Of a stretch of DNA of 64,000 bases, positions 42,150-56,815 are shown in pieces (the stretch's first letter is position 1; each line of letters begins with the position of its first letter). The notes under the pieces are model-generated. The model had not been told where the DNA came from. It did no database searches and saw only the letters and a program-made list of their open reading frames with translations. The stretch covers positions 620,001 to 684,000 of the forward strand of contig NZ_CP063362.1 of NCBI RefSeq assembly GCF_016807805.1, given 5' to 3'. The position numbers were made by a program, and so were the translations under genes. Source of the stretch: Xanthobacter dioxanivorans (GTDB taxonomy: Bacteria > Pseudomonadota > Alphaproteobacteria > Rhizobiales > Xanthobacteraceae).

Positions 42150-43034
42150 TCAGCCCTTGAGCACCTCGACGAGGGTCTTGCCGAGGCGAGCCGGGGACGG
42201 GGACACGCGAATGCCCGCCGCCTCCATGGCCGCGATCTTGTCCTCGGCGCCGCCCTTGCCGCCGGAGATGATGGCCCCCGCATGGCCCATGCGGCGGCCG
42301 GGAGGCGCCGTGCGGCCGGCGATGAAGCCCACCATCGGCTTCTTGCGCCCCTTCTTCGCCTCGTCGGCGATGAACTGCGCCGCCTCTTCCTCCGCCGAGC
42401 CGCCGATCTCGCCGATCATCACGATCGACTGGGTCTGCGGGTCGGCCAGGAACATCTCCAGCACGTCGATGAACTCGGTCCCCTTCACCGGGTCGCCGCC
42501 GATGCCCACCGCCGAGGTCTGCCCCAGCCCCTCCTGCGAGGTCTGGAACACCGCCTCGTAGGTCAGCGTCCCCGAGCGCGAGACGATGCCCACCGAGCCC
42601 TTCTTGAAGATGTTGGCCGGCATGATGCCGATCTTCGATTCGCCCGCCGTCACGATGCCCGGACAGTTCGGCCCGATGAGGCGGCTCTTGGAGCCCGAAA
42701 GCGCCCGCTTCACCTTCACCATGTCCAGCACCGGAATGCCTTCCGTGATGCACACGATGAGCGGGATCTCCGCGTCGATGGCTTCCAGGATCGCGTCGGC
42801 CGCCCCCGGAGGCGGCACGTAGATCACCGAGGCGTCGGCCCCGGTCTTCTCCTTCGCCTCGATCACCGTGTCGAACACCGGCAGGCCCAGATGGGTGGAG
42901 CCGCCCTTGCCCGGCGAGGTGCCGCCGACCATCTTCGTCCCGTAGATGATGGCCTGTTCCGCATGGAACGTGCCGTTCTTGCCGGTGAAGCCCTGGGTGA
43001 TGACCTTGGTATTGGCGTCGATGAGCACGGACAT
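42150..43034 (-). CDS. sucD: Succinate-CoA ligase alpha subunit
   Basis: A 294-residue protein. CoA/nucleotide fold [21 protein letters not shown] with [18 protein letters not shown]. The phosphorylated His is in the [29 protein letters not shown] segment near residue 246. It ends [11 protein letters not shown]. SucCD makes succinyl-CoA or works in the reverse direction in the citric-acid cycle. Its ATG overlaps the sucC stop (TGATG). Alternative identity as malate-CoA ligase (mtkB) is less likely because sucC lacks that family's features. The usual neighbours mdh and sucAB are absent. Confidence 0.93.
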
Positions 43035-44236
43035 CACGCAGCTTCCTTCTTCACCGCGGTCACGATCTTCTGCGCCGCATCATCCAGATCGTCCGCCGGG
43101 ATCACGTTCAGCCCCGACTCACGGATGATCTTCTTGCCCTCGTCCACGTTGGTGCCGGCGAGGCGCACCACGAGGGGGACCTTGAGACCCACCTGGCGCA
43201 CGGCGGCGATCACCCCCTCGGCGATGACGTCGCAGCGCATGATGCCGCCGAAGATGTTCACCAATATTCCCTCGACGTTCGGGTCCGCAGTGATGATCTT
43301 GAAGGCCGCGGTCACCTTCTCCTTGGTGGCGCCGCCGCCCACGTCGAGGAAGTTGGCGGGCTCGCGGCCATAGAGCTTGATGATGTCCATGGTGGCCATG
43401 GCGAGGCCGGCGCCGTTGACCATGCAGCCGATGGTGCCGTCGAGCGCGATATAGGAAAGATCGTAGCGCGAGGCCTCAATCTCCTTGAAGTCCTCCTCGC
43501 TCTCGTCGCGCAGCTGCGCCACGTCGGAATGGCGGAACAAGGCGTTGGCATCAAAGCCCACCTTGGCGTCGAGGCAGACCAGGCGGGCGTCCTTCGTCAC
43601 CACCAGCGGGTTGACCTCCAGCAGGCTCATGTCCTTCTGGGTGAAGGCCCGGTAGAGGCCTTCCGTCAGCGCCACCGCCTGCCGGCCGAGGTCGCCGGAA
43701 AGCCCGAGCGCCTGCGCCACCTTGTGGCCGTGCAGGGGCTGGATGCCGGTGGCGGGGTCCACCGAGAAGGTGTGGATCTTCTCCGGCGTCGCGTGCGCCA
43801 CCGCCTCGATGTCCATGCCGCCCTCGGTGGAGACCACGAAGGCGACGCGGGACGTGGCGCGGTCCACCAGCATGGAAAGGTAGAGCTCCTTGTCGATCAG
43901 GGCGCCTTCCTCCACGTACAGGCGGTTCACCTGCTTGCCCTCGGGGCCGGTCTGGAGGGTGACGAGGGTATTGCCGAGCATCTCGGCGGCGTTCGCCTTC
44001 ACCTCGGCCGGGGTCCGAACCACCCGCACGCCGCCCTTCGCCCCCTCCGGCAGCTCCCTGAAACGCCCCTTGCCGCGCCCGCCGGCATGGATCTGCGCCT
44101 TGACCACGAAGGCGATACCACCCAGCGCCCGGGCGGCGGCCTCCGCCGCCTCCGGGGTGAAGGCGGCGACGCCGCGGGAGACCGGGACGCCGAAATCCTT
44201 GAGGATGGCCTTGGCCTGATATTCGTGAATGTTCAT
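43034..44236 (-). CDS. sucC: Succinate-CoA ligase beta subunit
   Basis: A 400-residue ATP-grasp protein. [54 protein letters not shown], then [34 protein letters not shown] and [17 protein letters not shown]. The sequence follows SucC of related genera throughout, with the extra [15 protein letters not shown] segment after the GRG loop. The gene pair stands alone next to formyl-CoA transferase genes, so it may be a second copy serving the oxalate module with succinyl-CoA. That is inference. Confidence 0.93.
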
Positions 44237-44533
44237 CGGGGCTTCCTCCCTCGTCGAGGGCCGCGTGCGTGGCGGCTCCGGCGCTGCTCTTCCGGCGGCG
44301 CACTTCGACCAAAGTCGGAGTGTGCACGCAATCGGCGGCACGCACCAATGCGACACGGCGCCGGTGGGGCCGGAGGCGTGACGCTCTCGGCGGGTTTGGG
44401 GCGAAGATCGCCGGGCCCCTCAGGGGCGGCGCGGAGCCGGCGGCCGGTGCGCTCAGCGCGGCGGGCCGGTCGGGCGGCGGAACCGCCGTCTCGCGGCTCG
44501 CGTCGAAGGCGGGCCGTTCAAAGGCAGCCTGTG
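44237..44533. other. Region upstream of sucC, no gene
   Basis: No coding signal on either strand between the sucC start and the repeat at 44534. The sucC promoter must lie here, but no clear boxes are seen. Confidence 0.4.
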
Positions 44534-44640
44534 TCTAGAGCGTTTTCGGGCGAAGTGGTTACCGGCCCGCGTGAAGAAAACGCGTTAATTCAAAGATCCA
44601 GAGCATTTCACCGATTCCGAGAAACGGGGAAATGCGCGAG
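44534..44640. repeat. Rhizobial intergenic repeat with two imperfect hairpins
   Basis: The sequence begins TCTAGAGCGTTTTCGGGCGA and continues through AGTGG, GTGAAGAAAACGCG, CCAGAGCATTTCACCGATTC. GAGCGTTTTC can pair with GAAAACGC, and GCATTTC with GAAATGC. This layout is a familiar intergenic repeat of Hyphomicrobiales genomes (from memory, not searched). No gene lies in it. Confidence 0.55.
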
Positions 44641-44688
44641 GGCACGCGTCATGCCCGCCGTATGCCGGGCATCCACGTTTCGGCGCCG

Positions 44689-55532: not shown

Positions 55533-55651
55533 CCGCCACTCCCCGGACCGGCCGCGGAGGCCGGTCATCTTCGGTTTGCGGGCCACCCGGCCCACAGTCC
55601 CAACTTAAGGGAAGAGCCGGCGCCGTCCAGCCTGTGACAAATTTTCCGCTT

Positions 55652-55670
55652 TATGGAATTAATTTCCATA
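55652..55670. promoter_or_regulatory. IclR-type operator between iclR and the panE-like gene
   Basis: TATGGAATTAATTTCCATA has perfect seven-base arms (TATGGAA / TTCCATA) around TTAAT. It is very close to the known IclR-family consensus TGGAAATnATTTCCA. It sits in the divergent promoter region, 120 bases from the iclR start and 90 from the panE-like start. Confidence 0.65.
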
Positions 55671-55759
55671 TATATCCTTCAGCCAGCATCGCCAACGGCC
55701 AGACGCGCCTCGCAATCTGGCATACATAATACGTAATTGAAAACGCAGGAGGATCGGCC

Positions 55760-56815
55760 ATGAAGGTTTGCATCTACGGAGCGGGCGCCATCGGTGGATA
55801 TCTCGGGGTGGCCCTCGCCCAGGCCGGGGCCGAGGTGAGCCTGGTCGCCCGCGGCGGCCATCTGGAAGCCATGCAGACCAACGGCGTGAAACTGCTCATC
55901 GACGGAGAGGAGCGGGTGGCCCGGGTGCGCGCCACCGACGACCCGCGCGAGCTTGGCCCGCAGGATTATGTCTTCATCGCCCTCAAGGGCCATTCGGTGC
56001 CGGGCGTGGTCGAGCGCATGCGCCCGCTGCTGGGCGACAACACCGCCCTCGTCACCGCCGTGAACGGCGTGCCCTACTGGTATTTCTACAAGCATGGCGG
56101 TGCGCTGGAGAACCGCACGCTGGAGACCATCGACCCCAAGGGCCGCCAATGGGCGGCGTTCGGACCCGAGCGGGCGCTGGGCTGCATCGTCTATCCCGCC
56201 ACCGAGGTGGTGGCGCCGGGCGTGATCCAGCACATCTACGGCGACAAGTTCCCCATCGGCGAGCCCTCCGGCGAGATCACGCCGCGCGTCACCGCCCTCA
56301 GCCAGCTCATGGAGAAGGGCGGCCTGCGCGCGCCGGTGATGACCAACATCCGCGACGAGCTGTGGCTGAAGCTGTGGGGGAATCTGTGCTTCAACCCCAT
56401 CAGCGCCCTCACCCACGCCACCCTCGACATCATCGCCGCCGACCCCGGCACCCGCGCCGTGGCGCGCAACATGATGCTGGAGGCGAAGGCCGTGGCGGAA
56501 AAGCTCGGCATCAATTTCCGGGTGGACGTGGAGCGCCGCATCAACGGCGCCGGCGCCGTGGGCGCGCACAAGACCTCCATGCTCCAGGACCTGGAGCGCG
56601 ACCGGCCCATGGAGATCGACCCGCTGGTGAGCGTGGTGCAGGAGATGGGCCGCATGCTCGATTTGCCCACGCCGACCCTGGACGTGGTCCTCGCCCTGGT
56701 GCGCCAGCGTGCCGGCATGGCGGGCCTCGGCGACATCCTCAGCGTCCCTCCGCTCACCGCCGCCGACCTGGAGGCGAAGACCCTGGAGCCGCAGAAGAAG
56801 CGCGCCGCGCAGTGA
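55760..56815 (+). CDS. PanE-family reductase, probable oxalyl-CoA reductase
   Basis: A 351-residue ketopantoate-reductase family protein. NADP-binding MKVCIYGAGAIGGYLGVALAQAGAEVSLVARG, then DYVFIALKGHSV with the substrate Lys, GCIVYPATEV, and a C-terminal helical domain with LWGNLCFNPISALTHATLDI and AHKTSMLQDLERDRPMEIDPLVSVVQEMGR containing the conserved Ser/Glu set. It is about 50 residues longer than typical PanE. In Methylorubrum/Methylobacterium extorquens a PanE-like protein (PanE2) reduces oxalyl-CoA to glyoxylate. The oxalate neighbourhood makes that the better guess here. GGAGG precedes the ATG. True ketopantoate reductase is the alternative. Confidence 0.8.
   Translation: MKVCIYGAGAIGGYLGVALAQAGAEVSLVARGGHLEAMQTNGVKLLIDGEERVARVRATDDPRELGPQDYVFIALKGHSVPGVVERMRPLLGDNTALVTAVNGVPYWYFYKHGGALENRTLETIDPKGRQWAAFGPERALGCIVYPATEVVAPGVIQHIYGDKFPIGEPSGEITPRVTALSQLMEKGGLRAPVMTNIRDELWLKLWGNLCFNPISALTHATLDIIAADPGTRAVARNMMLEAKAVAEKLGINFRVDVERRINGAGAVGAHKTSMLQDLERDRPMEIDPLVSVVQEMGRMLDLPTPTLDVVLALVRQRAGMAGLGDILSVPPLTAADLEAKTLEPQKKRAAQ

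Follow-up and report, generated by a model that had tools for sequence, protein, structure and literature searches.

The oxalate pathway of Oxalobacter formigenes consists of the transporter OxlT, formyl-coenzyme A (CoA):oxalate CoA-transferase (Frc) and oxalyl-CoA decarboxylase (Oxc). In Cupriavidus necator (frc-oxc and ApbA2) and Methylobacterium (PanE2), oxalyl-CoA has two fates, and ApbA2 is taken as a PanE2-like reductase in the available passages of PMC7486775. Here, we describe an oxalate gene island of Xanthobacter dioxanivorans, located in a 64,000-nucleotide stretch of contig NZ_CP063362.1 (positions 620,001 to 684,000; hereafter the window). The island combines oxc and two frc genes with a tripartite tricarboxylate transporter (TTT), a panE-like gene, sucCD and several regulators. 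We put the probability at about 0.72 that it is one arm of a two-locus oxalate regulon with an importer, two metabolic branches and a priming module. An operator common to the oxalate genes within the genus is the strongest new result.

The host genome shares the Frc and Oxc families with O. formigenes and holds OxlT homologues outside the island. It differs in having a TTT near oxc, a proposed reductive branch, SucCD, a GntR operator and two loci. With Cupriavidus and Methylobacterium it shares the same two fates of oxalyl-CoA, whereas the host island joins the putative reductase gene panE, the TTT, sucCD and a second Frc in one place with a common operator. A genome announcement describes one operon said to serve both branches and gives no gene list, so its transporter type is not comparable (PMC9476978). 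Oxc-frc operons with a transporter gene were reported, and diverse oxalate transport was inferred, in a survey of OXC gene contexts, the available passages of which name no TTT system (PMC7190790). Burkholderia Q208 has oxalate genes with oxlT hardly transcribed, and no word beginning with 'tricarboxylate' occurs in that source. Known TTT systems (TctCBA, Bug proteins, TphC, MatC, AdpC) share the three subunits and the TctC fold with the island system, but oxalate is not among their ligands in the TTT review, the main text of which holds no word beginning with 'oxal' (PMC5812351). Our searches of the open-licence PubMed Central literature turned up no TTT system tied to oxalate. They also yielded no paper with this gene combination, which agrees, to that extent, with the sequence-only reading that the set looks undescribed.

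A conserved oxalate island

Gene identities were assigned by Pfam and NCBIfam profile matches against model cut-offs. These bear out the gene order and strands that the sequence-only reading had proposed. IclR, TctC, TctB, TctA, GntR, Oxc, Frc, PAS, Frc, SucC and SucD are encoded in this order on the minus strand (window 42150–56815) and the PanE-like reductase is divergent. The features are as follows, likely start positions being our own assignments:

42150–43037, minus: sucD paralogue, succinate-CoA ligase alpha (NF004230, 458.6 bits)
43034–44356, minus: sucC paralogue, succinate-CoA ligase beta (NF001913, 574 bits; homology begins at Met 44236)
44772–46058, likely start 46022, minus: frcB, YfdW/FRC-like formyl-CoA:oxalate CoA-transferase (TIGR03253, 745 bits, cut-off 504)
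46154–46855, likely start 46603, minus: stand-alone PAS protein, about 150 amino acids (PF00989)
46713–47990, minus: frcA, Oxc-adjacent Frc paralogue (TIGR03253, 712 bits, cut-off 504)
48109–49950, likely start 49863, minus: oxc, oxalyl-CoA decarboxylase (TIGR03254, 1016 bits, cut-off 739)
49910–50731, minus: gntR, FCD-type GntR regulator (PF00392 and PF07729)
50699–50709, minus: weaker operator-like site GTATACAGTAT in the gntR start region, not fitting the 15-base pattern at up to two mismatches
50826–52586, likely GTG start 52343, minus: tctA, TTT large membrane subunit (PF01970, 485.6 bits)
52641–53156, minus: tctB, TTT small membrane subunit (PF07331, 69.4 bits)
53239–54309, likely start 54252, minus: tctC, periplasmic solute-binding protein (PF03401, 93.6 bits)
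54360–54374, minus: operator TGGCATACGTTATAC upstream of tctC
54430–54444, minus: operator TGGTATACATTATTC upstream of tctC
54678–55595, minus: iclR-family regulator (closest model BhcR, NF045644, 284.8 bits, under its cut-off of 350)
55652–55670, no strand: palindrome TATGGAAATTAATTCCATA between iclR and panE, a possible IclR-family site (intergenic reading)
55718–55732, plus: operator TGGCATACATAATAC, its first base 42 bp before the panE start
55760–56815, plus: panE-like oxidoreductase of the PanE/KPR family, proposed oxalyl-CoA reductase (NF005089, 524.5 bits)

The gene set is real and conserved. Both oxc and frc score over curated cut-offs, in line with the oxalate function first assigned to the island, and TctA, TctB and TctC, encoded together and all over their Pfam cut-offs, form a complete TTT system. 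The best PDB match of Oxc is 7ayg (1088 bits), and YfdW is the best match among solved structures for both Frc proteins.

We compared the island with 80 TctC homologue loci from named genomes (L handles), in which oxc was called at 60% identity or more within the fetched locus DNA, and with 61 genomes surveyed around the host (G handles), 14 of which, the host included, belong to the genus. Loci and genomes overlap (for example L144/L009), so their counts are not additive, and G035 and G072 have identical oxc coordinates. In the genome survey, oxc and OxlT had to exceed their cut-offs, TctC had to reach 60% identity and PanE 57%. TctC matches of 47–53% (seven rows, including the only match of G018) were scored absent, and PanE matches below 57% and a partial one in G038 were excluded. 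Comparisons of neighbouring genes rest on identity thresholds, which weak homologues may escape.

The closest TctC relatives come from Xanthobacter species (86–91% identity). The order iclR-tctCBA-gntR-oxc with divergent panE was found again in nine of the 80 TctC loci (L001–L009), a recurrence which shows that it is not due to chance. Six of the nine (L001–L006; Xanthobacter and one Aquabacter) also carry frc-pas-frc-sucC. L007 has neither PAS nor SucC in the fetched DNA, L008 has PAS without SucC, and L009, a contig of 9.3 kb, stops after oxc. Confinement of the island to one strain was rejected, given the homologous loci in relatives.

Across the 80 loci, oxc is present in 39, in at least two gene orders. 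Many Bradyrhizobium loci show gntR-oxc-frc-tctCBA, to which L072 adds OxlT and panE downstream, and in three betaproteobacterial bins (L045, L050, L068) tctCBA is followed by oxc-frc. G029 (L149) carries gntR-oxc-frc-tctCBA-sucC-sucD-panE, all on one strand. In G026 (L147, C1:518500–534000), tctC lies between iclR and gntR as an orphan binding protein inside an oxalate cluster.

The genome survey found oxc in 33 of 61 genomes and TctC in 26, with both in 25, TctC only in one, oxc only in eight and neither in 27 (Fisher p 3e-9, kinship ignored). TctC and oxc lie within 7.1 kb of each other in 24 of these 25, the exception being G035, where they are on separate contigs; the sole TctC genome without oxc (G033) is an 80% complete assembly. 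Within the genus, ten of 14 genomes have oxc, TctC and OxlT, and the other four have none of the three. The 41 tctCBA loci without oxc were considered as a possible sign of another substrate. For these, 20 genomes were tested, and in 14 of them an oxc over cut-off lies outside the fetched DNA or elsewhere in the genome. One of the remaining six (G066) holds an oxc-like piece of 72 profile positions, and the other five (G065, G068, G069, G071, G077) are described below. The neighbours of stand-alone tctCBA loci offered no common catabolic clue (11 proteins from six loci, matching TerC twice, CBS/BON, GNAT, GntR, GFA, TerB, glutamine amidotransferase, quinone oxidoreductase and AraC, with one hit below cut-off to the hypothetical-protein model PRK10621).

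A common operator at two oxalate loci

The operator, a second oxalate cluster and the paralogy of sucCD go beyond what the sequence-only reading had described. A 15-base pattern, TGGYATACNTWATWC, was read from the intergenic regions, with two copies in front of tctC and one in front of panE. The window holds no sites beyond these three at up to two mismatches, against 0.07 expected, a count that is circular because the pattern was derived from them; independent evidence comes from the match in the second cluster and from other genomes. In the 6.65-Mb host genome, a search at up to one mismatch returns four matches, all perfect and all at the two oxalate clusters. The second cluster (C1 about 3.545–3.551 Mb) lies 2.9 Mb from the island and comprises a divergent GntR, a third Frc and two OxlT homologues. 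It has two-mismatch sites before gntR2, frc3 and oxlT2 and a perfect site before a small open reading frame. This frame (L155:11000–11218, minus strand, C1 ~3551 kb), downstream of oxlT2, encodes a 73-amino-acid protein with one hydrophobic stretch by eye, and tblastn matches to it were found in all seven other second clusters fetched (L177–L183; weak in L182).

We listed 118 sites over the 61 genomes and called a site linked when it lay within 6 kb of oxalate genes, a zone that makes up at most about 1.1% of the ten oxc-positive genus genomes. In these ten, all 27 perfect sites are linked (23 of 23 with the host genome excluded), as are eight of 15 one-mismatch sites, and each genome, host included, has a perfect operator before panE. 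The four genus genomes without oxc have no perfect site and one one-mismatch site, which is not linked. Other family members with oxc have linked sites at lower rates (7/8 perfect, 15/33 one-mismatch; 0/1 in those without oxc), and other families of the order have few (3/16 with oxc, 0/17 without).

At up to two mismatches, sites in the named loci occur within 400 bp upstream of tctC in 24 of 80 (reversed pattern 1/80, shuffled 0/80), upstream of gntR in 20 of 50 (no match with either control) and upstream of panE in 9 of 22 (reversed 0, shuffled 1), related loci among these not being independent. The reversed control reaches three mismatches in 17 of 50 gntR upstream regions; thus, only sites with up to two mismatches were used.

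This distribution makes the TTT, PanE and OxlT look like one regulon. Since sites precede gntR in many loci and related GntR proteins (61% identical) are present in both clusters, we propose the GntR/FCD protein as the reader of the operator. TGGTATA-type sites are known for the related regulator NanR. A palindrome search of the intergenic regions missed the operator and returned one iclR-panE palindrome among several GC-rich ones. The sequence GGAAATTAATTCC at its core is conserved in 9 of 14 aligned iclR-panE intergenic regions and may give the biomass branch a second point of control.

Proposed importer, branches and CoA supply

The sequence-only reading had the TTT import oxalate in place of OxlT. 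Replacement was rejected for the host genome, as the second cluster encodes a tandem pair of OxlT homologues (C1:3547718–3550839) that score 663 and 657 bits against a cut-off of 335, and the TTT thus stands beside OxlT. Both homologues keep the Asn-Gly-x-x-Arg-Pro stretch that houses the oxalate-binding arginine of OxlT, according to the available passages of PMC10070484. The other part of the claim, oxalate as the TTT substrate, gains from comparative genome context. OxlT lies within 8 kb of oxc in eight genomes, in five of them without TctC there (G015, G017, G018, G034, G035) and in three together with it (G023, G025, G028). Conversely, no OxlT reaches the cut-off in seven of the 25 genomes that have both oxc and TctC (G016, G021, G024, G027, G029, G030, G036). 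Four oxc-positive genomes have neither transporter near oxc (G042, G054, G056, G060), although G054 carries more divergent versions of tctC (37%) and tctA (45%) at that place. This alternation beside oxc is the best evidence, short of proof, that the TTT carries oxalate, and import of oxalate is its most likely function. The AlphaFold model of TctC has a TctC-type fold (mean pLDDT confidence score 83.4), and its first 17 PDB matches are TctC/Bug-type chains, the closest solved chain being 4x9t (28% identity, solved without ligand).

Genome content is also in line with both fates of oxalyl-CoA, as first proposed for this locus. The PanE-like protein is a KPR-family sequence linked to oxalate genes and a candidate PanE2/ApbA2-type reductase. 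Its gene is conserved in the island behind an operator, and in 18 of the 33 oxc-positive genomes a PanE maps no more than 11 kb from oxc. A glyoxylate carboligase is encoded elsewhere in the host genome (C1:2445476, 1150 bits). G035 has its panE orthologue ~2 kb away from a glyoxylate carboligase and alongside an oxalate cluster with an IclR-family gene. According to the available passages of PMC7486775, C. necator grew more slowly on oxalate without ApbA2 and not at all without frc-oxc.

FrcA and FrcB differ in their active-site region. All 22 FrcB-type open frames contain TGFWDG and GGGGQPG. The 113 FrcA-type frames have Arg in TGF[R]DG in 78 cases and SGGGQPG in 109. All these counts include duplicate loci as well as Frc3-type and Inquilinus-type frames. 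In Xanthobacter and Aquabacter loci, a PAS orthologue separates the two frc genes, and every one listed contains an RHWDGY stretch. In the island protein (window 46154–46603), we take this stretch to sit where FixL has its haem histidine; the FixL model scores 58.8 bits, far below its cut-off of 850. Our guess would be a redox or ligand sensor.

Island sucD is 99.2% identical in DNA and 100% in protein to the other sucD (C1 ~819 kb), and the two sucC genes share 80% DNA identity. Together, these values fit a pair that was duplicated long ago and in which sucD was homogenised afterwards. In the pairwise comparison (window 42150–44356 against L152), the contrast looks like gene conversion limited to sucD. 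The malate-CoA ligase model scores island SucC below its cut-off, and the host genome has two succinate-CoA ligase beta genes over cut-off plus two weaker matches. Elsewhere (L156, C1:5521449–5525210), a thiamine pyrophosphate (TPP) enzyme, whose best model is an acetolactate synthase below cut-off, neighbours a gene that weakly matches sucC and another that resembles aldehyde dehydrogenase genes.

A proposed two-locus regulon and its alternatives

In the mechanism we propose, TctC would catch oxalate in the periplasm and TctAB would import it via an ion gradient. Frc would move CoA from formyl-CoA onto oxalate, and Oxc would decarboxylate oxalyl-CoA to formyl-CoA, leading to formate as the energy branch. 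The formyl-CoA from Oxc would activate the next oxalate, so that CoA is recycled. The PanE-like enzyme would reduce part of the oxalyl-CoA, yielding glyoxylate and free CoA, and the glyoxylate carboligase would carry this biomass branch onward. Each oxalyl-CoA turned into glyoxylate would thus free a CoA that needs replacing. As the reductive branch would drain CoA thioester from the formyl-CoA/oxalyl-CoA cycle, SucCD and the second Frc probably re-supply it and may re-prime CoA for the glyoxylate branch: SucCD would pay ATP for succinyl-CoA, and a Frc-family enzyme would pass its CoA to oxalate. The GntR/FCD protein would read TGGYATACNTWATWC at the island and at the second locus, where GntR, Frc and two OxlT are encoded, and the binding-protein importer and the antiporters would work side by side. 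A more specific form, with the TTT for low and OxlT for high oxalate under one GntR operator and ATP-paid CoA priming by SucCD and the second Frc, allowing oxalyl-CoA to enter biomass without stalling the formyl-CoA cycle, is tentative, and we hold it at somewhat less than even odds.

Several observations weigh against the two-locus regulon. The reversed control pattern also has three matches in the host genome. Outside the genus, a search at up to one mismatch finds no linked site in nine of 19 oxc-positive family members (G015, G017, G021, G024, G026, G028, G030, G034, G036). Among them are four of the seven genomes with the TTT and no OxlT (G021, G024, G030, G036), and G023 is linked solely via a panE far from its oxc. 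TctC of G026 has no matching tctA or tctB. At no more than 28% identity, the nearest solved TctC-type structures either have other acids named as ligands in their titles or contain no ligand, and the best profile match, 25hk, names none, so that structure names no ligand for TctC. TctC without an oxc over cut-off occurs in three Inquilinus-type genomes (G068, G069, G071) and in Propylenella (G077). These four hold gntR, a TPP enzyme ~27% identical to Oxc and Frc together (L129–L132, L016:9320–12651), possibly for a different acyl-CoA chemistry or as another Oxc lineage. Azospirillum G065 likewise lacks an oxc over cut-off; the search for frc in this genome covered the neighbourhood of its best TPP match and found none there. 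Finally, succinyl-CoA and oxalate yielded no product with YfdE or UctC in the available passages of PMC3720670; Frc clades may differ in this respect.

Import of another small acid by the TTT (glyoxylate, glycolate, tartronate, malonate or similar) to feed the pathway, with OxlT alone importing oxalate, would suit the broad ligand range of TTT binding proteins (available passages of PMC5812351), the stand-alone tctCBA-gntR loci without oxc in the fetched DNA and the conserved Asn-Gly-x-x-Arg-Pro stretch of the host's OxlT homologues. The seven genomes with TctC and no OxlT, together with the alternation of the two transporter types beside oxc, make it unlikely. Operator-like sites at up to two mismatches also precede tctC in 9 of the 40 loci whose fetched DNA has no oxc, which again argues against it (the oxc flag here has no coverage filter and marks 40 loci, not 39). 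A reverse flow, in which the PanE-like enzyme oxidises glycolate-derived glyoxylate to oxalyl-CoA and decarboxylation follows, as a means of glyoxylate disposal, has a precedent in a secondary route of C. necator on glycolate (available passages of PMC7486775), and the island's IclR-family regulator resembles BhcR, though under cut-off. Frc activates free oxalate, however, and external oxalate is indicated by the presence of a transporter in the island, by the number of Frc genes (three) and by the OxlT cluster, which shares the operator, leaving this direction quite improbable.

We consider it rather unlikely that sucCD is a bystander, a duplicate of tricarboxylic acid cycle genes that landed behind frcB. 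The near-identity of sucD to the other copy would fit such an arrival, and there is no operator before sucC in the window. The presence of sucC in only six of 80 TctC loci points the same way and counts against a priming module. The 80% identity of sucC, however, makes the pair look old, with sucD homogenised, and sucC stands behind frcB in Xanthobacter and one Aquabacter. In G029, which belongs to another genus, sucCD lies within the oxalate cluster, between tctA and panE, behind a perfect operator that begins 73 bp upstream of the sucC frame.

With its links to oxc through gene neighbourhood, co-occurrence and the operator, the TTT system is a concrete candidate for an oxalate importer. If it does import oxalate, the smallest dicarboxylate would join the ligand list of TTT systems, and the oxc genomes without OxlT would be explained. 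The role suggested for SucCD and Frc renders the CoA balance of oxalate assimilation testable, and the operator makes the oxalate regulon readable from sequence in the genus.

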